64,000 nt of DNA, taken from assembly GCF_003202235.1 (NCBI RefSeq), contig NZ_MASU01000006.1:124001-188000 (forward strand). Direction: 5' to 3'. Positions 53,597 to 64,000 of this stretch are shown in pieces (within the stretch, counting starts at the first letter, position 1; every line of letters starts with the position of its first letter). The position numbers were made by a program, and so were the translations under genes. This DNA is from Prauserella flavalba. GTDB taxonomy: Bacteria; Actinomycetota; Actinomycetes; Mycobacteriales; Pseudonocardiaceae. Under the pieces are notes generated by a model. That model made no database searches. It was given only the letters and a program-made list of their open reading frames with translations, and was not told the DNA's origin.

Positions 53597-54214
53597 TTAC
53601 TGCTGGGCCCGCAGGGCCGCCAGCTGCTGTTCGAACGGGATCACCTCGTCCGTGGCGTGACTCGTGGCCGGCCTGCCCGCCATGAGCTCGGCCAGTTCCC
53701 CCGCCGCGCGGGCGATGCGGCCGGAGAGCCCCTCGGCGTCGGCCGCGCCCCAGTCCTCGGCCGCGGCGTAGACGGCCGTGGGCACGACCACCGCCCGCAG
53801 GTAGGCGAACATCGGGCGCAGGGCGTGTTCCAGCGCGAGCGAGTGGCGGGGCGTGCCGCCGGTCGCCGCGATCAGCACGGGCTTGCCGGTGAGCGCGGTG
53901 TTGTCCACGACGTCGAAGAACGACTTGAACAGCCCGCTGTAGGAGGCGGTGAAGATCGGGGTGACGGCGATGAGCGCGTCGGCCGCCGTCACCGCCTCCA
54001 GCTCGGCGTTCAGTGCGGGGCTGGGGAAGCCGGTGACGAAGTTGTTGGCGATGTCCACGGCCAGCTCGCGCAGCTCGATCACGTGGACGTCCACCCCACG
54101 GCCCTCGTCGGCGAGCTGCCTGGTGACGGCCTCGCCGAGCCGGTCGGACAGCAGCCGCGTGGACGACGGCTGGGTGAGCCCGGCCGTGACGACCACCAGC
54201 TTCAGCGGGTTCAT
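53597..54214 (-). CDS. NAD(P)H-dependent FMN reductase (CE1759/MsuE-like)
   Basis: A 205-residue flavodoxin-fold reductase that supplies reduced FMN. LVVVTAGLTQPSSTRLLSDRLGEAV is the phosphate-binding loop and TPIFTASYSGLFKSFFDVVD the flavin-ring segment. The family is regularly paired with a luciferase-like monooxygenase, and here its ATG overlaps the stop of that gene (ATGA). The two should function as a two-component monooxygenase. Confidence 0.9.
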   Translation of the reverse strand: MNPLKLVVVTAGLTQPSSTRLLSDRLGEAVTRQLADEGRGVDVHVIELRELAVDIANNFVTGFPSPALNAELEAVTAADALIAVTPIFTASYSGLFKSFFDVVDNTALTGKPVLIAATGGTPRHSLALEHALRPMFAYLRAVVVPTAVYAAAEDWGAADAEGLSGRIARAAGELAELMAGRPATSHATDEVIPFEQQLAALRAQQ

Positions 54215-55308
54215 CGTGCCTCCACGGGGACCTCGTCGGGCTTGTTGGCGAGCAGCGACTCGTGCGTGGGCGCGTCCGGGACCTCGGCAGGCCGGTTCTT
54301 CGCGAACTCCTTCCGCAGCACGGGAACCACCTCCTCGCCCAGGATGTCCAGCTGCTCGAGGACGGTCTTGAGCGGCAGGCCGGCGTGGTCCATCAGGAAC
54401 AGCTGGCGCTGGTAGTCGCCGAAGTACTCGCGGAAGGTGAGCGTCTTGTCGATCACCTGCTGCGGGCTGCCGACGGTCAGCGGCGTCTGCTCGGTGAAGT
54501 CCTCCAGCGAAGGGCCGTGACCGTACACCGGCGCGTTGTCGAAGTAGGGACGGAACTCGCGCACCGCGTCCTGGCTGTTCTTGCGCATGAACACCTGCCC
54601 GCCGAGCCCGACGATCGCCTGCTCGGGCGTTCCGTGGCCGTAGTGGGCGTAGCGCTCGCGGTAGAGGCCGATGAGGCGCATGTAGTGCTCCTTCGGCCAG
54701 AAGATGTTGTTGGCGAAGAAGCCGTCGCCGTAGTAGGCGGCCTGCTCCGCGATCTCCGGGCTGCGGATGGAGCCGTGCCAGACGAACGGCGGAACGCCGT
54801 CGAGCGGGCGCGGGGTCGAGGTGAAGCCCTGGAGTGGGGTGCGGAAGCGGCCCTTCCAGTCGACGACGTCCTTGCGCCAGAGTTCGTGCAGCAGGGCGTA
54901 GTTCTCGATGGCGAGCGGGATGCCCTGGCGGATGTCCTGCCCGAACCAGGGGTAGACGGGACCGGTGTTGCCGCGGCCCATCATCACGTCGACGCGGCCG
55001 TCGGCGAGGTGCTGGAGCATGGCGAAGTCCTCGGCGATCTTCACCGGGTCGTTGGTGGTGATCAGCGTGGTGGACGTGGAGAGGATCAGCCGCTCGGTGC
55101 GCGCGGCGATGTAGCCGAGCATCGTCGTGGGCGAGGACGGCACGAAGGGCGGGTTGTGGTGCTCACCGGTGGCGAAGACGTCGAGCCCGACCTCCTCGGC
55201 CTTGAGCGCGATGCGGACCATCGCCTTGATGCGCTCGTACTCGGTCGGCGTCGTGCCGTTGGTGGGATCGGTCGTGACGTCGCCGACGGTGAAGATCCCG
55301 AACTGCAT
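54211..55308 (-). CDS. LLM-class FMN-dependent monooxygenase (CE1758 family)
   Basis: A 365-residue luciferase-like TIM-barrel monooxygenase. The start MQFGIFTVGDVTTDPTNGTTP, the EVGLDVFATGEHHNPPFVPSSP segment and ILSTSTTLITTNDPVKIAEDFAMLQHLADGR are family hallmarks. It uses FMNH2 from the co-translated reductase; the substrate is unknown. The ATG at 55308 has AAGGTG upstream. A MarR-like inverted repeat lies 21 bp before the start, so it was probably inducible. Confidence 0.9.
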   Translation of the reverse strand: MQFGIFTVGDVTTDPTNGTTPTEYERIKAMVRIALKAEEVGLDVFATGEHHNPPFVPSSPTTMLGYIAARTERLILSTSTTLITTNDPVKIAEDFAMLQHLADGRVDVMMGRGNTGPVYPWFGQDIRQGIPLAIENYALLHELWRKDVVDWKGRFRTPLQGFTSTPRPLDGVPPFVWHGSIRSPEIAEQAAYYGDGFFANNIFWPKEHYMRLIGLYRERYAHYGHGTPEQAIVGLGGQVFMRKNSQDAVREFRPYFDNAPVYGHGPSLEDFTEQTPLTVGSPQQVIDKTLTFREYFGDYQRQLFLMDHAGLPLKTVLEQLDILGEEVVPVLRKEFAKNRPAEVPDAPTHESLLANKPDEVPVEAR

Positions 55309-55328
55309 CCCAATCACCTTGCTCGGAA

Positions 55329-55348
55329 GTAGTTGCTTGCTCAACTAC
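55329..55348 (-). promoter_or_regulatory. MarR-like operator before the monooxygenase operon
   Basis: GTAGTTG at 55329-55335 and CAACTAC at 55342-55348 form perfect 7-bp arms around six bases. Size and position fit a MarR operator over the promoter of the monooxygenase gene. Confidence 0.6.
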
Positions 55349-55404
55349 CTACCCTAACGGCAAGGTGGCCGGAGGTATTCCTTGGCTGAGGGTGGGTTCC
55401 TGAC

Positions 55405-55461
55405 CTGCAGTGAAGGCCACCTTCACTGCGTTGAACGCAGGCAAGGTGGCCTTCACTGCAG
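55405..55461. repeat. Palindromic intergenic element, copy H (short form, second compensatory change)
   Basis: Perfect 19-bp arms lie at 55405-55423 (CTGCAGTGAAGGCCACCTT) and 55443-55461. Compared with other copies the left arm has CTG for CCG and the right CAG for CGG, again a paired change. It lies 15 bp beyond the stop of the acyl-CoA dehydrogenase remnant on the minus strand, so it was presumably that gene's terminator. Confidence 0.85.
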
Positions 55462-55475
55462 AGGGAGGCTTGTGG

Positions 55476-55595
55476 CTACCTCAGCTCCGCGCTCGTCTTT
55501 CCCAGGAGCCTGCGGGCGACGATGAGTTGCTGGATCTGCTGCGTGCCTTCGAAGATGTCCAGGATCTTGCGGCCGGTCAGCGGCCACCTGGCGAA
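55476..55595 (-). pseudogene. 3' remnant of an acyl-CoA dehydrogenase gene at the element boundary (putative att site)
   Basis: The minus strand encodes RKILDIFEGTQQIQQLIVAR followed by RLLGKTSAELR and a stop at 55476. This is the C-terminus of a fatty acyl-CoA dehydrogenase, including the catalytic-base region IFEGTQQIQ. Upstream of about 55580 the similarity stops abruptly and AICE sequence begins. The rest of the gene is absent from the window. The simplest reading is that the element integrated into the 3' end of this gene and left the tail here, with the remainder of the gene, or a restored copy, at the far junction. Confidence 0.75.
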
Positions 55596-55599
55596 TTGA

Positions 55600-56156
55600 G
55601 CTAGAAACCGCCTCTGACCTGCGCAGACGTTTGCCGTCGTTTCTCGCGGCTACTCGCCTCTGCTCGACCTCCCACGGCCTGGAGACGGCCTGGCGCGAGC
55701 CTGCCCAGCTCACCCCGTCCACCCCGACATGAAGCCGAACACGCGGCCGGTGGTGCCGTGTCAAGGGTCGAAGATCGCGCAGCGACGCGCCAGCGCCCTT
55801 GACGCGGTGCGACCGGCCGTTGTCACGATCCGGCGTCGGGGCGGAGGGAGCCCGTAACGGATCACTCGCAGTGAGCGACCGACGAGATACGACGCTGATG
55901 AGGGGACTGGGGCTTGCTCGACGTGGACATGCGCGCCGCTGGCGGCTGGCGACCCGTGCCGGGCGTTGCGGGCCGCACCGGCCGGCCGCCGGGCGTAGCG
56001 GAGCGGGAGCCCGGTGTGCCGGGATGGGTGCGGCCCGCCGCCCGAGCACGATGTCGCGAGGCGACGTGCGCGCCGCCGTCGGCGGCGCGCCTTGATCCCA
56101 TAGAGCCAAATTCGGCAAGGAATTATCATGTAACCCGATCGCGAGGTGGCTTCACG
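55600..56156. other. Non-coding left end of the integrative element
   Basis: No gene was identified in these 557 bp although frames stay open because of high GC. GTCAAGGG at 55760-55767 pairs with CCCTTGAC at 55796-55803. TCACT-CGC-AGTGA lies near 55862. A strong GC hairpin is at 56068-56090. The region may hold promoters for the cargo gene at 56157 or attachment-site arm sequences. Confidence 0.45.
56068..56090 (+). terminator. Strong GC hairpin upstream of the HEPN-motif gene
   Basis: GCGCGCCGCC at 56068-56077 pairs perfectly with 56081-56090 around a three-base loop GTC. It lies 66 bp before the TTG start at 56157 and marks the border between GC-rich non-coding DNA and the AT-richer cargo gene. 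It could terminate upstream transcription or act as a leader structure. Confidence 0.5.
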
Positions 56157-58544
56157 TTGAGCGACGAGGCGAAAGTCAGTAGTGCGCCCTCAGAGAACGA
56201 GATAGAAACACTCGTGCGCTGCTTCCATCTCGGAGACTTCATTGAGCTGGGGTTCTTCGATCATGAATACGATCCGCCTCGGGCGTTGACCTCGCAGATC
56301 AAGTTGACGCGGCTTGGAGCTCGGATTGCGAACCAGGAGAAAGGCGGAAGTGTTGGGCTTCACGAATCTCAGCTTGCCGTATTTCTAAACGGTTGGTCAG
56401 GGGCTGACATACTTATCGATCTAGAAGCCATCGACGTCGAGGCCCTTCGCGCGCATATCTCATCTGAGATAAAGAGGAAGAAGATAGTACTTCCGTGGGT
56501 TTATGGTAGGCGAATATACGACCTAATAGCCGATTCGGCTTTTCATGGTCACATTAGGCCAAGTTACGACGAAAGCAAGTCGCTTTTGGCGGATCTGCCG
56601 CAAGGTGTGTTTCAGCTGGGCCCCTATGTGTCCGGTCCGTATGGGTTGCTCGAGACGAAATACTGGCGAGACATTCCGCCGCCGTATGCTTTGCCTGGGT
56701 TTCATTGTGAAGAGATCGACTGTCACTCGGTTCATCCTATCTACTTGACATCCGGAGAGTGCAATTTAGAGAAGTCTACAGAGCAGATTAGAAAAAAGCT
56801 TTCGAAGAAGCATCAAAGGAATGAAGAATTTTTAGATGCCGTCACTAGATTCCTTGCAGCTAAGGTGCCGCCGTTCTCCTGGTCGCATAATGGTAGCCTC
56901 CCCTATTTCTTATTAGATTGCTTTACGACTGATGAGATTAGGTTGCTCCTTACTTCGCTTCTTGATTCTACGAATGGGAGCTTGAGGCGGCAGATTCGTG
57001 AGTCGATCGATATCGAAGTTCGTTCTGCGGCAGAGTTCGCGGCAAGTCTTGATGAAGCTCAACTACTGCAGATTACGTTGCTCGCTTCGGATAGGCAGAT
57101 ACATACCTGCTTGAATCGACTTATTCGAACGAGGGGAATTGAGATCCCAGCGGGAGAAGTTAGGAGTGCCCGTATAAGACAGGATGGATCAGGGCCGATG
57201 GATATCCGGCTGCAAGCTTCCGCTCTGGGGGTTCGGTACTCGCCACCGGAGGGGTTGATTCAACTTCGTCTCCGACAGCTAGTCTCTGCAATTTTCGCGC
57301 CTGGCGACCAAGATTCGACGAACAGAATTCGTTGGGCTCTTAGAAGATTCGAAGGGGATACGGCTGAGAAAAAGCTCTCTGTGGCGATGTCGGATGAGCC
57401 GCCACTGTCGATAGTAAGGAAGTTGATTGTTGCGGATGAAAAGGCATGTACTACGGTCCTCGAGCTTCTTGATCTCTCTCCGGAGCTGATTTCTAATCTG
57501 AGTGATGACGACATATGTGCGATTATATCTTGGCATATCGGATTCGATGATCAAAGCTCCGACGAGGCGCTAGTACATTTCCGTCGAAACCTCAGCGAAG
57601 TGCAAAGGATCGCGAGAAGTCTCCCGGCGCGGCTTGATAGAAAAGACGCGAGCGAGATTAGGGGTGATGCTAGTCAGCTATTTGTTAGTCTTGAGGAAGT
57701 ACTTAAGGTTGTGCTATGTTTCACTGGTTGGGCGCTAATAAACGATCACTATGGTCAAGGCGCAGAGTTTGAATACTCGAAGGGCATTGCAAGCCAGTTT
57801 ATGGACACGTGGCTGAAGGCTAGGCGGGTCAAGGTGGAATCCGATGCAATAGAGAATATGGCATTGGGTGATTTGTTGACCTGTTTTAGTGCTCTGGGCA
57901 ATTTCTTTGCTGAGGCGTCGAGGAATTCCGATGGTCACAAAAGACCTGTTGCAGAGTGGCCGCGGACAATTAGAGAGGTAAGTTCACCTTTTGAGTTTCC
58001 CTTCCAATCCAGGATCCCTTTCCTTGATCTGGAAGAGAGTGCTCGTGACATGATTGCGCAAACCTTAAGGTCTGTTGTGAAAGGGCTCAATTCTGCTGGT
58101 GTTCTTTCTGTGCGTAACGGGTTCATGCACCACAATGAAGAGGTGCCGACGAGAGATGACATCTTGCGGTCGGCGGCCGAGGTTGATATTCGAGTGAGTG
58201 AACTGGTCAACATGGGGCTTTATCCATTGACCTTCTCAATGTACTCGACAGACGTTGACATGTATGGTCGTCGACGTGTCCTGATGCGATCAGATGGTGG
58301 CCCCGAGGTTTGGCTGAAGCGGCCTAGTATTGTTCATCTTTCCGGTTTTCCGAGCGTTGGCGAGCGGCAAGTCCTAGTCGTTGGAGCGGTGCTGCGGACG
58401 GGTGATGAGCCGCTACGTTTTCGAGCGGTAAGCGACTCGGCATATCGAGAATTCTGGCGCAATTTTCCGAGGCGCCCGGCGCGTCGCGTCGAGCATTCGT
58501 TGTCAAATCCACTGGTTTCCTTTGGTTCCACTAACCTAATTTAA
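56157..58544 (+). CDS. Large cargo protein of unknown function with a HEPN-type R-x4-H motif
   Basis: A 795-residue protein I cannot assign to a named family. The TTG at 56157 follows GAGGTGG by seven bases and starts at the AT-richer DNA; a longer frame from 55914 is GC-rich and unlike protein. Visible elements are HCEEIDCHSVH at residues 183-193, a Lys-rich helix (EQIRKKLSKKHQRNEE) and a helical C-terminal third with R653-N-G-F-M-H658, the R-[ND]-x3-H motif of HEPN ribonucleases, followed by HNEEVPTRDDIL. A C-terminal beta-rich region follows. HEPN proteins on mobile elements are often toxins or abortive-infection RNases, so anti-phage defence is a plausible but untested role. It converges with the phosphatase gene, leaving 10 bp. 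Confidence 0.6.
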   Translation: MSDEAKVSSAPSENEIETLVRCFHLGDFIELGFFDHEYDPPRALTSQIKLTRLGARIANQEKGGSVGLHESQLAVFLNGWSGADILIDLEAIDVEALRAHISSEIKRKKIVLPWVYGRRIYDLIADSAFHGHIRPSYDESKSLLADLPQGVFQLGPYVSGPYGLLETKYWRDIPPPYALPGFHCEEIDCHSVHPIYLTSGECNLEKSTEQIRKKLSKKHQRNEEFLDAVTRFLAAKVPPFSWSHNGSLPYFLLDCFTTDEIRLLLTSLLDSTNGSLRRQIRESIDIEVRSAAEFAASLDEAQLLQITLLASDRQIHTCLNRLIRTRGIEIPAGEVRSARIRQDGSGPMDIRLQASALGVRYSPPEGLIQLRLRQLVSAIFAPGDQDSTNRIRWALRRFEGDTAEKKLSVAMSDEPPLSIVRKLIVADEKACTTVLELLDLSPELISNLSDDDICAIISWHIGFDDQSSDEALVHFRRNLSEVQRIARSLPARLDRKDASEIRGDASQLFVSLEEVLKVVLCFTGWALINDHYGQGAEFEYSKGIASQFMDTWLKARRVKVESDAIENMALGDLLTCFSALGNFFAEASRNSDGHKRPVAEWPRTIREVSSPFEFPFQSRIPFLDLEESARDMIAQTLRSVVKGLNSAGVLSVRNGFMHHNEEVPTRDDILRSAAEVDIRVSELVNMGLYPLTFSMYSTDVDMYGRRRVLMRSDGGPEVWLKRPSIVHLSGFPSVGERQVLVVGAVLRTGDEPLRFRAVSDSAYREFWRNFPRRPARRVEHSLSNPLVSFGSTNLI

Positions 58545-58554
58545 GAGTGTGTGC

Positions 58555-59346
58555 TCACAGATTCTTGGTTAGCTTGGTTACTTCAGCCGAGATGCTCGGC
58601 GTTGTCGCAGTGATAGAGGTTGTGCTGAAACAGTATTTTTTCCCCGTGCTATCTGTGAGAGCTGCGCCGGATTCCTTGGACAAGAGGGCTCCTGCAGCCA
58701 TGTCCCAGGGCTTGTTGCTGAGGATCACGCACGCATCAGTGCGGCCTTCGGCTACCCAGGCGAGATCTAACGACGCCGCACCGAACATGCGCACACGCTC
58801 GACGTTCTCGGCCAACGCCTGCGTGACGGCGAATCGGCGGCGGTTCTTCTCGGCTGCTCCTTCGCCAGTGGCGTAGTCGCCGATGGAGACGATGGCGCGG
58901 TTTAGGTCGGTGGTTTCGCTGGCGTGGATGGGTTTGTCGTTGCAGTACGCTCCGCCGCCTTTGGTGGCGTGGTAGCGCAGGTTGAGGAACGGCGCGACGA
59001 TGACGCCCACGACGGGTTCGCCTCGGTGGACCAGGGCTAGCGAGGTGGCGCAGAGTGGGATGCCGTGGGTGAAGTTCGAGGTGCCGTCGATGGGGTCGAG
59101 GGCCCACACGTACTCGGTGCTCTCATCGATGCTGCCGCCGCCTTCCTCTTCGCCGAGGAAGTCGATGTCCGGGGTTGCGCGGCGTAGGTGGTCTTGGATC
59201 TCGTGTTGGATCTTGACGTCCAGCTCGGTCACGTAGTCGCGGTCACCCTTGGCGCGGACGGCCCCCGGCGCTGAGGTCGTCATGAACTTCGCGCCGATGT
59301 CGGCGGCTTCCTGCGCGATCGTGAGCAGGTCGTTCAGGTCCTTCAC
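58555..59346 (-). CDS. Inositol monophosphatase/CysQ-family phosphatase
   Basis: A 263-residue Mg-dependent, lithium-sensitive-type phosphatase. The metal site motifs are FLGEEEGGGS, WALDPIDGTSNFTHG and NKPWDMAAGALLSKESGA. Substrates of the family are inositol phosphates, fructose bisphosphate or 3'-phosphoadenosine 5'-phosphate; the sequence does not decide. The GTG start overlaps the stop of the regulator gene (GTGA), so the two are made together. Such a gene is not a standard AICE core component. It might act in regulation, as the Nudix protein does beside pra in pSAM2, or be cargo. Confidence 0.85.
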   Translation of the reverse strand: MKDLNDLLTIAQEAADIGAKFMTTSAPGAVRAKGDRDYVTELDVKIQHEIQDHLRRATPDIDFLGEEEGGGSIDESTEYVWALDPIDGTSNFTHGIPLCATSLALVHRGEPVVGVIVAPFLNLRYHATKGGGAYCNDKPIHASETTDLNRAIVSIGDYATGEGAAEKNRRRFAVTQALAENVERVRMFGAASLDLAWVAEGRTDACVILSNKPWDMAAGALLSKESGAALTDSTGKKYCFSTTSITATTPSISAEVTKLTKNL

Positions 59347-60224
59347 GTGGTGACCTCCGTGCTACGCGCCCACATCGACTCGAACACCTGCGAGAACGTC
59401 TCGAACAGGCCCGGTGGTCCAGGCTGCTTCTCGATCACCAGCGTCGGGGACTCGACCCCGCGGGCATCTGGCAGGTAGGGCTGTACAACGCAGGTGGCGT
59501 CATCGATCACGGTGATGTTGAACCGCACGGCCTCGTCGTAGGTGCGGATGCGCAGGTTCCCCCGCGCCTCGGGCGAGAGCTTGCCTTGGAGGCGCTGCAA
59601 CGTCTGGATGTTCAGCGTGGTGAGCGTGGAGAGCACGCCCTGGGGGTGCGACTCCTCCTGCTCGCGCTCGGTGATATAGCGGCCGGCCGGGTCGAGGAAC
59701 AGGCACTGGACCACGGTCCCCGATTCGAGCAGGTCTAGTAGCGATCGGTCGGGGTAGCTCTGGCACAGCAGGTTGAGCGAGAGGCCGACCATGTTGATCT
59801 GCTCGGCTCCGTCGAAGAGCTTGTGCGGTGGGATCTCGTGCGAGAACGCGGGTCGGCTCGGGAACACGGCGGTCACGTCGGCCATGCCCTGCGCGGTTGG
59901 CTGTGCTGCCTTTGCCGGGCGGCCCGTGCCGGTCGAGGCTGGGGGCTCGGGTACGAACTCGATGCCCCCTGTGTGCTCCTGGAAGAGCTGTTCGGCCGTC
60001 CAGCCGGGCAACATCGCTTCCAGTATCCGGCAGTGGTGTGCGTACGGCAGGCCCTGGATATCGCGAGAGAGCCAACGGTAGAACTGCGCCTTGCTCGGCC
60101 AGCTCCCGACAAGATCGGGCTCAATCTGCTTCGCGAGCTTGTCGTACTCCTTGCAGAACGCGCGGTGCCCTTGCAGGTGCCGCTGCCGCAGCAGGACCTT
60201 CAGCACGATCGGCTTGTCGGCCAT
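59343..60224 (-). CDS. HTH regulator with C-terminal DUF5919-like domain
   Basis: A 293-residue protein. The N-terminal part (about residues 10-85) is a helix-turn-helix-like region including WPSKAQFYRWLSRDIQGLPY. A Pro/Ala linker follows. The C-terminal part from about 130 reads LFDGAEQINMVGLSLNLLCQ and LLESGTVVQCLFLDPAGRYI, typical of DUF5919 proteins found in AICEs. It is divergent from the pra-like gene across 192 bp, so it probably controls the switch between integrated and replicating states. It is co-translated with the phosphatase. Confidence 0.75.
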   Translation of the reverse strand: MADKPIVLKVLLRQRHLQGHRAFCKEYDKLAKQIEPDLVGSWPSKAQFYRWLSRDIQGLPYAHHCRILEAMLPGWTAEQLFQEHTGGIEFVPEPPASTGTGRPAKAAQPTAQGMADVTAVFPSRPAFSHEIPPHKLFDGAEQINMVGLSLNLLCQSYPDRSLLDLLESGTVVQCLFLDPAGRYITEREQEESHPQGVLSTLTTLNIQTLQRLQGKLSPEARGNLRIRTYDEAVRFNITVIDDATCVVQPYLPDARGVESPTLVIEKQPGPPGLFETFSQVFESMWARSTEVTT

Positions 60225-61682: not shown

Positions 61683-61853
61683 TTGGCAACCATAGACAAC
61701 GATCGCCGATCGATGTCAACCCGGGTCACCCGGATGCGATGCGAATCATGCAAGCGGTTCGCCCGGCTGGCCCCTGGCGACAAGAAATGCGCGGCCTGCG
61801 CTGGTCGCCTTCCCCTCGACGTCCCGAGCGGGGATCGAGGTGAGGCCCGATGA
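61683..61853 (+). CDS. Small zinc-ribbon protein coupled to traSA
   Basis: A 56-residue protein starting at TTG 61683, with GGAG six bases upstream; ATG 61713 would give 46 residues. It contains two knuckles, C-E-S-C and C-A-A-C, 15 residues apart (MRCESCKRF ... KKCAACAGR), forming a likely zinc ribbon. Its stop overlaps the ATG of the translocase gene (ATGA), so the two are translationally coupled. It is easily missed because of its length. A role in DNA or protein binding during transfer is possible. Confidence 0.65.
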   Translation: MATIDNDRRSMSTRVTRMRCESCKRFARLAPGDKKCAACAGRLPLDVPSGDRGEAR

Positions 61854-63349
61854 GCGTGCACGGTTCGCGTTGGGCCGACCCGGCACCGCTGGAGATCTCC
61901 CGGCCTCGCCTGCCGTGGTGGACCCTCCTGCCGCGCTGGGTCAAGTACCTCATCGCGCCGTTCGTGTTCACCTGGCTTGTGTGCTGGCTGCTGTTGCAGC
62001 TCGGCCGGGTGCTCTGGCGCTACCCGCTGACAGTCACGGTCGCGGTGCTCGTCGGCTGGCTCCAGGCCACGGCGGGGCACTGGGTTCTGGCTTTCACACT
62101 GCTGGCCGTCGTCCTGGTGCTTGCGTTGTGGCGCTGGCGGCATGCCTCGTCGTTCGACCGCTTCGTGGCACCGCAGCCGCGCACGGAGTTTCGCCGGTTC
62201 TCGGTGTACGCGTGCCAGTGGCGCACGGTGATGCGGCTGTCGGACCTGGTGAAGACCAGCCGGGGCAAGGAGTACCGACCGAAGCTCGGGTGGGTGCGCT
62301 CAGAGGGCTGGCGTGATCGGGTGCGCGTGCGGATGGTGAAGGGGCAGGCACCCGAACAGTGGGAGCTGCGGGCCTCGGGTCTGGCTCACGCGTTCAAGGC
62401 CAAGTCGTGCCGGGTGCGGGTGCGCAAGCCGGGTCGGCTCGAACTCGACCTGGTGCACCGGGATCCGCTCGTGCGGCCGGTTCCCGTGCCCGCGCTCACC
62501 GACGATGCGGCCAGCGTGGATCTGAAGCGCGTGACGGTGGGCCGGACGGAGACCGGCAAGCCGTGGCGGGTTCGGCTGCTCGGCACGCACCTGCTGACCG
62601 TGGGTGTCTCGGGTGCGGGCAAGGGCTCGCTGCTGTGGTCGATCGTGTGGGCGCTCGCGCCGTTGATCCGCAGTGGCCGCGTTCGGCTGGCGGGGATCGA
62701 CCCCAAGGGCGGCATGGAGCTCGGCCAAGCTCCGGAGGTGTTCAGCCGGGTCGTGTTCGACAACGGCCCTGATGCCGTAGCGCTGCTGGAAGAGATCGCG
62801 GCCACCGTAAAGGAACGCGCGACCCGGTACCGAGGCAGATTGCGGGCGTGGACCCCAGAGACGGGCGACCCGTTCATCCTGCTCGTGGTCGACGAGCTGG
62901 CCGACGTGATCGCCTACCAAACCGACAAGGGCCTGCGAGAGCGGGCAAGCCGGGCCGTGCAGACCATCACGAGTCAGGGCCGTGCCCCCGGCGTGTGCGT
63001 GCTCGGTCTGCTCCAGGACCCGCGCAAGGAGGTCATCAGCTTCCGGCACCTGTTCTCCACGCGCATCGCGATGCGGCTGGACGAGAAGGCGCAGGTCGAC
63101 ATGGTGCTTGGCGATGGCGTGCGGGAACGTGGGGCGACGGCGCATGAGATCTCCGAGCACACGCCCGGTGTCGGCTGGGCCAAGGAAGAGGGACGACGGG
63201 AACCGTTCCGGGCACGGGCCTTCCACGTCACAGACACCGACCTGGATGAGCTGGTCACCTATGTGACCGGGGTGCCGGTCCACCGTGCTGACGTGCTGGC
63301 CTTCCCCACACCGCAGGACGGGTCGCAGAGCGGGGGTGTTGCGGCATGA
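61850..63349 (+). CDS. traSA: FtsK/SpoIIIE-type DNA translocase TraSA (TraB-like)
   Basis: A 499-residue membrane-anchored ATPase that moves double-stranded AICE DNA between mycelia without nicking. Two transmembrane segments lie near residues 30-60 (YLIAPFVFTWLVCWLLLQLG) and 65-100 (VTVAVLVGWLQATAGHWVLAF). Walker A is G252-V-S-G-A-G-K258-G and Walker B ILLVVDELAD with D348-E349. VQTITSQGRAPGVCVLGLLQDP is the conserved sensor region. A C-terminal winged helix that binds clt repeats may be short or absent. It overlaps repSA by ATGA. Confidence 0.92.
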   Translation: MSVHGSRWADPAPLEISRPRLPWWTLLPRWVKYLIAPFVFTWLVCWLLLQLGRVLWRYPLTVTVAVLVGWLQATAGHWVLAFTLLAVVLVLALWRWRHASSFDRFVAPQPRTEFRRFSVYACQWRTVMRLSDLVKTSRGKEYRPKLGWVRSEGWRDRVRVRMVKGQAPEQWELRASGLAHAFKAKSCRVRVRKPGRLELDLVHRDPLVRPVPVPALTDDAASVDLKRVTVGRTETGKPWRVRLLGTHLLTVGVSGAGKGSLLWSIVWALAPLIRSGRVRLAGIDPKGGMELGQAPEVFSRVVFDNGPDAVALLEEIAATVKERATRYRGRLRAWTPETGDPFILLVVDELADVIAYQTDKGLRERASRAVQTITSQGRAPGVCVLGLLQDPRKEVISFRHLFSTRIAMRLDEKAQVDMVLGDGVRERGATAHEISEHTPGVGWAKEEGRREPFRARAFHVTDTDLDELVTYVTGVPVHRADVLAFPTPQDGSQSGGVAA

Positions 63350-64000
63350 CCGAGGTCGCTTCGTTCCCTGCCGATGTCGCGGGGCAGACCCGTGCGCAGC
63401 GGATGCGGCAGCCGCTCTCGGCCGAGGTCATCAAGGCCACGGCGGAGAAGCACGGCGTGTGTGTCCGGCCTTTCACGATGGAGGTGGGCGATCCGGACAC
63501 CGGTGAGTTGCGGTACGTCGCTGTGCCGTGCGGGTCCACGGTCGAGTCGGTGTGCGCTCCGTGCGCGAAGAAGGCCAAGGCGCTGCGGATGGTGCAGTGC
63601 CGGGAAGGCTGGCACCTGACCGAGGAACCGGACTTCACCCCGGAGCCACCGACCCGCCAGCAGACCGAGCTGCTCGAGTTCCGGGCCGATCTCGTGCACG
63701 CCTATCGGCAGGCCCTGGCCGAGGGCGTCGAGTGCGATGCGGAGGAGCTGCGCGAAGAGATCCGGGGCGTCGACGAAGAACTTCGGCAACTCGGCATGCG
63801 GGGTCGGCTGCCCTCGCCGGAGCCTCCGGGCAAGAGGCCGGCCAAGCGCTCCACGAAGCGGCGGCAGGATGCCCCGGACCTGCCTACCCGCAAGGTCGCC
63901 AAGACCACGGTGGGACGCGAGTACGCAGGGAAGTTCCGGCCGTCCATGTTCGTCACGCTCACCTGTGACACCTATGGGCGAGTGCGGGAGGACGGCACAC
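63346..64000 (+). CDS. repSA: AICE replication initiator RepSA (3' end beyond window)
   Basis: The first 218 residues of a rolling-circle initiator. The N-terminal region carries VCAPCAKKAKALRM, part of a zinc-binding motif, then a charged helical segment and Lys-rich linker. RPSMFVTLTCDTYGRVREDG is the first Rep motif typical of pSAM2-like RepSA. The frame stays open at the right edge. The start ATG overlaps the traSA stop. Confidence 0.88.
   Translation, partial: MTEVASFPADVAGQTRAQRMRQPLSAEVIKATAEKHGVCVRPFTMEVGDPDTGELRYVAVPCGSTVESVCAPCAKKAKALRMVQCREGWHLTEEPDFTPEPPTRQQTELLEFRADLVHAYRQALAEGVECDAEELREEIRGVDEELRQLGMRGRLPSPEPPGKRPAKRSTKRRQDAPDLPTRKVAKTTVGREYAGKFRPSMFVTLTCDTYGRVREDGT

Follow-up and report, generated by a model that had tools for sequence, protein, structure and literature searches.

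A candidate single-protein HEPN effector gene in the variable cargo slot of an integrative and conjugative element of Prauserella flavalba

A 64,000-nucleotide stretch of the genome of Prauserella flavalba (contig NZ_MASU01000006.1, positions 124,001 to 188,000; hereafter the window) carries, on the plus strand at 56157..58544, a gene for a 795-residue protein that we regard as a candidate single-protein HEPN effector. The gene occupies a variable position in an actinomycete integrative and conjugative element (AICE), where sister elements hold unrelated genes, and the C-terminal part of its product is a predicted helical domain with an invariant RN-x3-H motif at a helix end. On balance, we favour the reading that the gene is the single cargo of the AICE and encodes a self-contained HEPN-RNase immune effector acting by abortive infection, with RNase and anti-phage activity predicted. 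An earlier note, made from the sequence alone, had proposed a HEPN defence protein, and this proposal is supported by the invariance of the motif, its placement at a helix end, the mobility of the gene, the slot that it occupies, and defence genes next to homologues.

Gene, motif, and predicted fold

The open reading frame (ORF) starts with TTG, immediately preceded by GAGGTGG, and its GC content is 0.505 compared to 0.686 in the flanks. The frame is also open from an alternative TTG at 55914; this upstream part overlaps the conserved hairpin and core of the element (see below) and was not taken as coding. The protein had no matches in Pfam up to E 10, none in NCBIfam, and none among the 5027 models of known defence systems in PADLOC-DB 2.0, while a sequence search of the PDB gave chance-level rows at best. 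The earlier note had remarked on the low GC content, the lack of a recognisable family, an R-x4-H signature with a polar N after the R, and a Cys/His cluster; all four observations were reproduced, the last two as RNGFMH at residues 653–658 and H183-C184-x4-C189-x3-H193.

The predicted RNase active-site motif, R653-N-G-F-M-H658, is encoded at 58113..58130 on the plus strand. As stand-alone evidence it was rejected, R-x4-H being at the chance level; the pattern occurs three times in the protein, at 653, 589, and 722. The narrower RN-x3-H was obtained in 4.7% of 20,000 shuffles and has a second copy at 589. Since the motif is weak by itself, the case rests on conservation. The family set comprised 12 distinct members, window included, all spanning the motifs; the partial locus L017 and the frame-broken L002 and L004 were excluded from member counts. 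Only the copy at 653 was invariant, with R653, N654, and H658 retained in 12 of 12 members, so that both R653 and H658, whose conservation the earlier note had named as a check, are preserved throughout. The motif was also present in L017 and L002. Overall, 42 positions were invariant in the 12 sequences, including C184, C189, H193, E513, D530, H531, R653, N654, and H658.

The helical HEPN-like domain was delimited at residues 495–685 (57639..58211, plus strand) from the helices of an AlphaFold2 model and the invariant residues. The model of the protein had a predicted local distance difference test score (pLDDT) of 82 and showed a C-terminal bundle with helices at residues 495–528, 542–555, 570–589, 627–646, 649–657, and 666–685. 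R653 and N654 lie inside helix 649–657, and H658 opens the loop before helix 666–685; local pLDDT around the motif helices was 82–95. The C-terminal region that the earlier note had described as helical is all-helical in the model, and the motif lies where one helix ends, shortly ahead of the following one. This placement agrees with the description of HEPN domains in the excerpted text of PMC3710099, where the motif closes helix 3 and its R is followed by a polar residue. E513, D530, and H531 are situated upstream of the motif within the same domain, and E513 may correspond to the acidic residue that this paper places upstream of the motif.

In the fold search, 4z30 (Roquin HEPN+ROQ) had the smallest rmsd among the 50 matches listed, 2.6 Å over 116 residues. 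Also among the matches listed were 4txa and the Csm6 structure 8jbc, of which the matched part is presumably the Csm6 HEPN domain. The HEPN domain in 4z30 and 4txa is described in a portion of PMC4614863. MNT-type HEPN toxins were not among the fold matches listed, an absence that is uninformative by the search tool's own note. Alignments by hhalign to three single HEPN sequences (ApeA/RiboL-HEPN) had probabilities below 8%, too weak to count; for the two targets having RN-x3-H, the aligned ranges fitted a pairing of the motifs, the third target lacking it. No HEPN model was found among the Pfam matches of six members. We consider the C-terminal domain to be very probably HEPN.

Residues 1–490 (56157..57626, plus strand), presumably the sensing or regulatory part, are composed of helices and a small beta part (residues 153–196) according to the AlphaFold2 secondary structure. 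They include HC-x4-C-x3-H at residues 183–193 (56703..56735, plus strand), a possible metal site in which all 12 members retain C184, C189, and H193 and the model has low pLDDT (blocks 54 and 75). No match for the N-terminal part was obtained in sequence searches, and the fold search barely covered it.

Host element and cargo slot

A sister element is present in the congeners G966 and G1063. Compared to G1063, the window is 96% identical over 54201–56117 and 95% over 58690–68498; compared to G966, 92% over 55469–56117 and 86% over 58697–68498. No alignment was found between these segments in either comparison. The HEPN-like gene is replaced at exactly the same place by unrelated genes, a DUF6119 gene in G1063 and a Fic gene in G966, and it occurs in none of the three congeners of the collection (G1039, G966, and G1063). 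A 27-nt core, CTTGATCCCATAGAGCCAAATTCGGCA (56091..56117, plus strand), has its final base at 56117, which is the left breakpoint in the comparisons with both L039 and L040; the sequence common to both sister AICEs stops exactly here. A GC-rich hairpin (56068..56090, plus strand) precedes the core and forms the left edge of the cargo slot. The right edge is the 3′ end of an inositol-monophosphatase-family gene (58555..59346, minus strand; PF00459, E 4.6e-58), and the right breakpoints, 58690 and 58697, fall inside this 3′ end, so that each element has its own version of the phosphatase C-terminus. The divergent part is the final ~45 codons of this gene (58555–58697), in a region where the sister AICEs are otherwise 86–95% identical; each cargo swap also replaces the C-terminus of the phosphatase.

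The slot was followed in further elements by means of the DUF5919 gene next to the phosphatase. DUF5919 was matched in 102 of 200 genomes of the family, and, in the ranking by E-value, the 22 places that follow the window, G1063, and G966 were taken (51–90% identity). Together with G966 and G1063 these make 24 related elements besides the window; the AICE genes compared in the 22 were the phosphatase and DUF5919. The two genes adjoin in all 25 elements. The hairpin and core, counted at up to 7 mismatches in 27, were detected in 18 of 25 elements. In these 18 (window 56068–56117 and 17 related), the hairpin is followed by CTTGATCCC-TAGAG-...-TTC-GCA, and conservation stops where the cargo begins. 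An alignment of the 18 snippets has 30 invariant columns, a number to which their selection by the core contributed. With up to 3 mismatches, the core has one site in its own genome. The hairpin with CTTG/A resembles, in our opinion, a rolling-circle nicking origin.

A low-GC slot ORF, defined by GC below 0.585, a length of at least 190 aa, and a position past the phosphatase within 3.2 kb, was found in 16 of the 24 related elements and not in L072, L074, L075, L078, L082, L085, L087, and L089. There were 20 such ORFs; Pfam was run on all of them and PADLOC on 10. Defence-type families above the Pfam cut-offs were present in 7 of the 16 occupied elements, as a raw count without control for other positions of the element. 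These were ABC-3C (L073), DpnII-MboI restriction endonuclease (L076), ApeA_NTD1 with HEPN_Apea (L080), GmrSD_N/NsnA (L081), nSTAND3 with Mrr_cat (L086), Abi_C (L093), and Fic/SoFic (L039). Pfam also identified a ParA-like ATPase directly followed by a protein with a sub-threshold RiboL-PSP-HEPN match (L091:7619–9267, plus strand), which possibly form a two-gene system, a DUF6119 protein of 591 aa with a GC content of 0.49 (L040:9962–11734, minus strand), belonging to a family of unknown function, and a nucleotidase accompanied by an orphan (L088). The slot ORFs of L083 and L084 had sub-threshold Pfam matches only. At least one low-GC slot gene without a Pfam match at E 0.001 was recorded in 5 of 24 elements (L077, L079, L090, L092, and one of two genes in L088). 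The orphan genes L079:7166–9052 (plus strand), L092:8417–9190 (minus strand), and L090:8457–9119 (minus strand) are candidates for new defence genes.

The interval from the core to the phosphatase was 0.9–3.1 kb with a GC content of 0.48–0.54 in 14 of 18 slots (window included), and 3.7 kb with a GC content of 0.66 in L085. Three of the 18 slots were nearly empty (71, 160, and 434 bp), and L089 (81 bp) was similar on a weaker core match.

The AICE itself extends over 55475–66635 in window numbering, the right end lying beyond the window, and is 11.2 kb long, flanked by a 94-bp repeat. The left attachment (att) copy (55475..55568) is 85% identical to the right one (66542–66635, beyond the window), with an exact 29 bp at 55540–55568 and 66607–66635. 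The congener G1039 has a single att copy with both flanks adjoining, i.e., an empty site. A minus-strand gene to the right of the element, which we take for an acyl-CoA dehydrogenase gene, supplies the right att copy with its 3′ end. The att repeats and the empty site confirm the mobile setting suggested in the earlier note, and so does the position at the AICE edge, the gene beginning 0.6 kb inside the left att repeat. The note had also stated that no antitoxin gene is adjacent; the neighbours are indeed the PF00459 and DUF5919 genes on the right and a PF00296 gene on the left, outside the element, with no MNT gene. Other genes of the element are those for the DUF5919 protein, presumably the AICE regulator (59343..60224, minus strand; PF19319, E 4.3e-29), and an FtsK/SpoIIIE-type transfer ATPase (61850..63349, plus strand; PF01580, E 9.5e-9). 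A reading frame that starts in the window (63346..64000, plus strand) runs to 64989, and a further one follows beyond the window at 65200–66450; naming them by eye from the sequence, we take them to be a replication initiator and a tyrosine integrase, respectively.

Proposed function, alternatives, and known systems

In the proposed mechanism, the N-terminal ~490 residues with the C-x4-C-x3-H cluster would keep the protein inactive until a sign of infection is met. The C-terminal ~190 residues would be the HEPN domain, probably a dimer, cutting RNA via R653/H658 without a metal, and the cutting of RNA would arrest the infected cell in the manner of abortive infection. Since control would lie in the same chain, a separate antitoxin gene would be unnecessary. 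We regard a defence role of the gene as likely and this sensor-gated RNase mechanism as moderately likely.

A HEPN RNase could instead serve the element, either as a self-limiting toxin against cells that lose the AICE or as a block on rival mobile elements. The gene is indeed mobile-element cargo, and HEPN proteins are frequently the toxin of toxin-antitoxin pairs (PMC3710099, in excerpt). However, it has no antitoxin-like partner, and its neighbours within the element, inositol monophosphatase and DUF5919, are oriented in the opposite direction and stay while the cargo is swapped. In addition, the L018 homologue stands alone between tRNA repeats. We therefore consider service to the element unlikely. 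Still less probable is a non-catalytic RNA- or protein-binding HEPN-like bundle, in which case the protein would be a regulator or scaffold. Some HEPN domains are binding modules, and the smallest-rmsd match among those listed, Roquin HEPN, comes from an RNA-binding region; yet presumed non-catalytic HEPN domains lack the R-x4-6H motif, according to the excerpts of PMC3710099, whereas R, N, and H are invariant here in 12 of 12 members despite about 21–38% identity outside close pairs.

Two results weigh against the immune HEPN-RNase reading: the plain R-x4-H pattern arises in 83% of 5,000 shuffles of the 795-aa protein, and by fold-search Z the Roquin and Csm6 HEPN matches are not above the helical-bundle background. 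Both of these, and the lack of a profile match, would be expected if the motif were fortuitous, the helical domain not HEPN, and the protein an unrelated AICE cargo enzyme. The invariance of R, N, and H, the helix-end placement, and the presence of Csm6 and Roquin among the fold matches listed argue against a fortuitous motif, which we find very improbable.

ApeA is an established anti-phage system. Like the putative HEPN RNase described here, it consists of a single gene for an N-terminal domain and a C-terminal HEPN domain, and an ApeA-like gene occurs in the corresponding slot of L080; the Pfam models ApeA_NTD1 and HEPN_Apea had no match in 6 of 6 members (window protein and five homologues). 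Tha of Staphylococcus aureus prophages is a single protein with a non-specific RNase activity that phage tail proteins trigger (PMC11087260, in excerpt). By the description given in that excerpt, the only basis of the comparison, Tha shares with our protein the single-protein design, C-terminal HEPN, RN-x3-H motif (RNSIMH in Tha-1), and carriage by a mobile element, but Tha-1 has 301 aa, is carried by S. aureus prophages, and has the inhibitor Ith, whereas the present protein is 795 aa long, its N-terminal part being far larger and containing an invariant Cys/His cluster. RNases of the HEPN superfamily include RnlA/LsoA, PrrC/RloC, Csm6, and the HEPN proteins of HEPN-MNT pairs (PMC3710099, in part). 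Like them, the present protein has R-x4-H with a polar residue after R, and its model places this motif where a helix of the bundle ends; Csm6 is 15% identical over 131 aligned residues in the fold search. The present protein differs in having no profile match and no MNT-type partner gene.

In a study of P2/P4 elements, hotspots in mobile elements reportedly hold defence genes. The likeness is that one variable position in a conserved element holds alternative defence genes; the difference is an AICE slot with fixed edges, the hairpin/CTTG sequence and the inositol-monophosphatase 3′ end. The word "inositol" was not found in the main text of the AICE literature searched. AICE cargo with restriction-modification and AIPR genes (PMC9513070) and diDNase genes in AICEs near defence systems (PMC11706625) are mentioned in excerpts of these papers. 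Thus, the catalytic idea is already known, and so is variable, partly defence-type AICE cargo (PMC9513070). The 795-aa family, its architecture, and the AICE slot were not found in the literature searched, which is no proof of absence. We tentatively suggest that the gene may represent a new family of immune HEPN RNases in which a single protein includes the gating sensor, and that its AICE lineage may have a slot dedicated to defence cassettes, marked by the hairpin then CTTGATCCC-TAGAG and by a phosphatase 3′ end rewritten at each swap. If so, a single lineage of conjugative elements would exchange immune systems of one or two genes, unrelated to each other, at a fixed position, and a HEPN effector family without a match in Pfam, NCBIfam, or PADLOC would be added. 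The interval from hairpin/CTTG to inositol monophosphatase would then be an address for reading off unknown actinobacterial defence genes. The slot makes the swapping of single immune genes by AICEs testable.

Distribution of the family and homologous loci

All counts of the genome searches include the own genome. In the phylum draw, the profile matched 2 of 396 genomes and the single protein 3 of 396, one of which was dropped as chance. L003 in G271 was not kept as a homologue: the single sequence matched it at E 4.8e-4, but the profile did not find it in the same draw. The single protein matched 5 of 394 genomes of the class and 2 of 298 of the order; the profile matched 2 of 200 genomes of the own family, and one of four genomes of the genus was positive, a patchy distribution. 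A scan of genome contigs yielded 9 loci from 156 pattern stretches, in Nocardioides (2), Streptomyces (2), Jiangella, Pseudarthrobacter, Hamadaea, Cellulomonas, and a metagenome-assembled genome of Deltaproteobacteria; two of them duplicate earlier loci (L010 = L007 and L013 = L005). The counted member L014 ends early, with a stop at position 743 of the match. The phage, plasmid, and viral-contig collections contained no homologue; one of these scans gave 20 pattern stretches, none of which was confirmed.

Pairwise identity in the 12 members was 21–72%, and the window protein was 22–28% identical to the other eleven. Horizontal transfer is indicated by the members from Jiangella and Pseudarthrobacter, which belong to different families and are sisters in the tree (58% identity, support 100/100). 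The branch of the window protein is long and its position in the tree is unsure.

The gene had a lower GC content than its flanks in 12 of 12 members, and mobile or defence features were observed at 8 of the 13 other homologue loci. A phage-type integrase is located near L011, L016, L022, and L024, a serine recombinase with a transposase domain at L012, and a TrwC relaxase upstream at L021. No mobile or defence feature was found at L010, L013, L015, L017, and L023 with crude gene calls and partial annotation. Neighbour annotation covered 62 of 100 called neighbour genes, scanned as a pooled tally; tallied PADLOC models such as ThsC, C3a194, PDC-S10, PDC-S68, and CARF3 were not assigned to any locus. 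Direct repeats, searched at 12 homologue loci, were clear only for L018 (44 bp), L012 having 20 bp. At L018, the repeat is of tRNA-Glu and bounds a 3.56-kb islet (L018:9149–12753) in which the homologue is the only ORF above 100 codons, with no integrase inside. PD-Lambda-1 adjoins the homologue at 2 of 13 loci (L014 and L022); together with the cargo swaps in the slot, these neighbours agree with the defence association put forward in the earlier note. A compact defence island at L022:12689–18388 contains PD-Lambda-1, a type IV restriction endonuclease, a phage integrase, and AriAB (PARIS).
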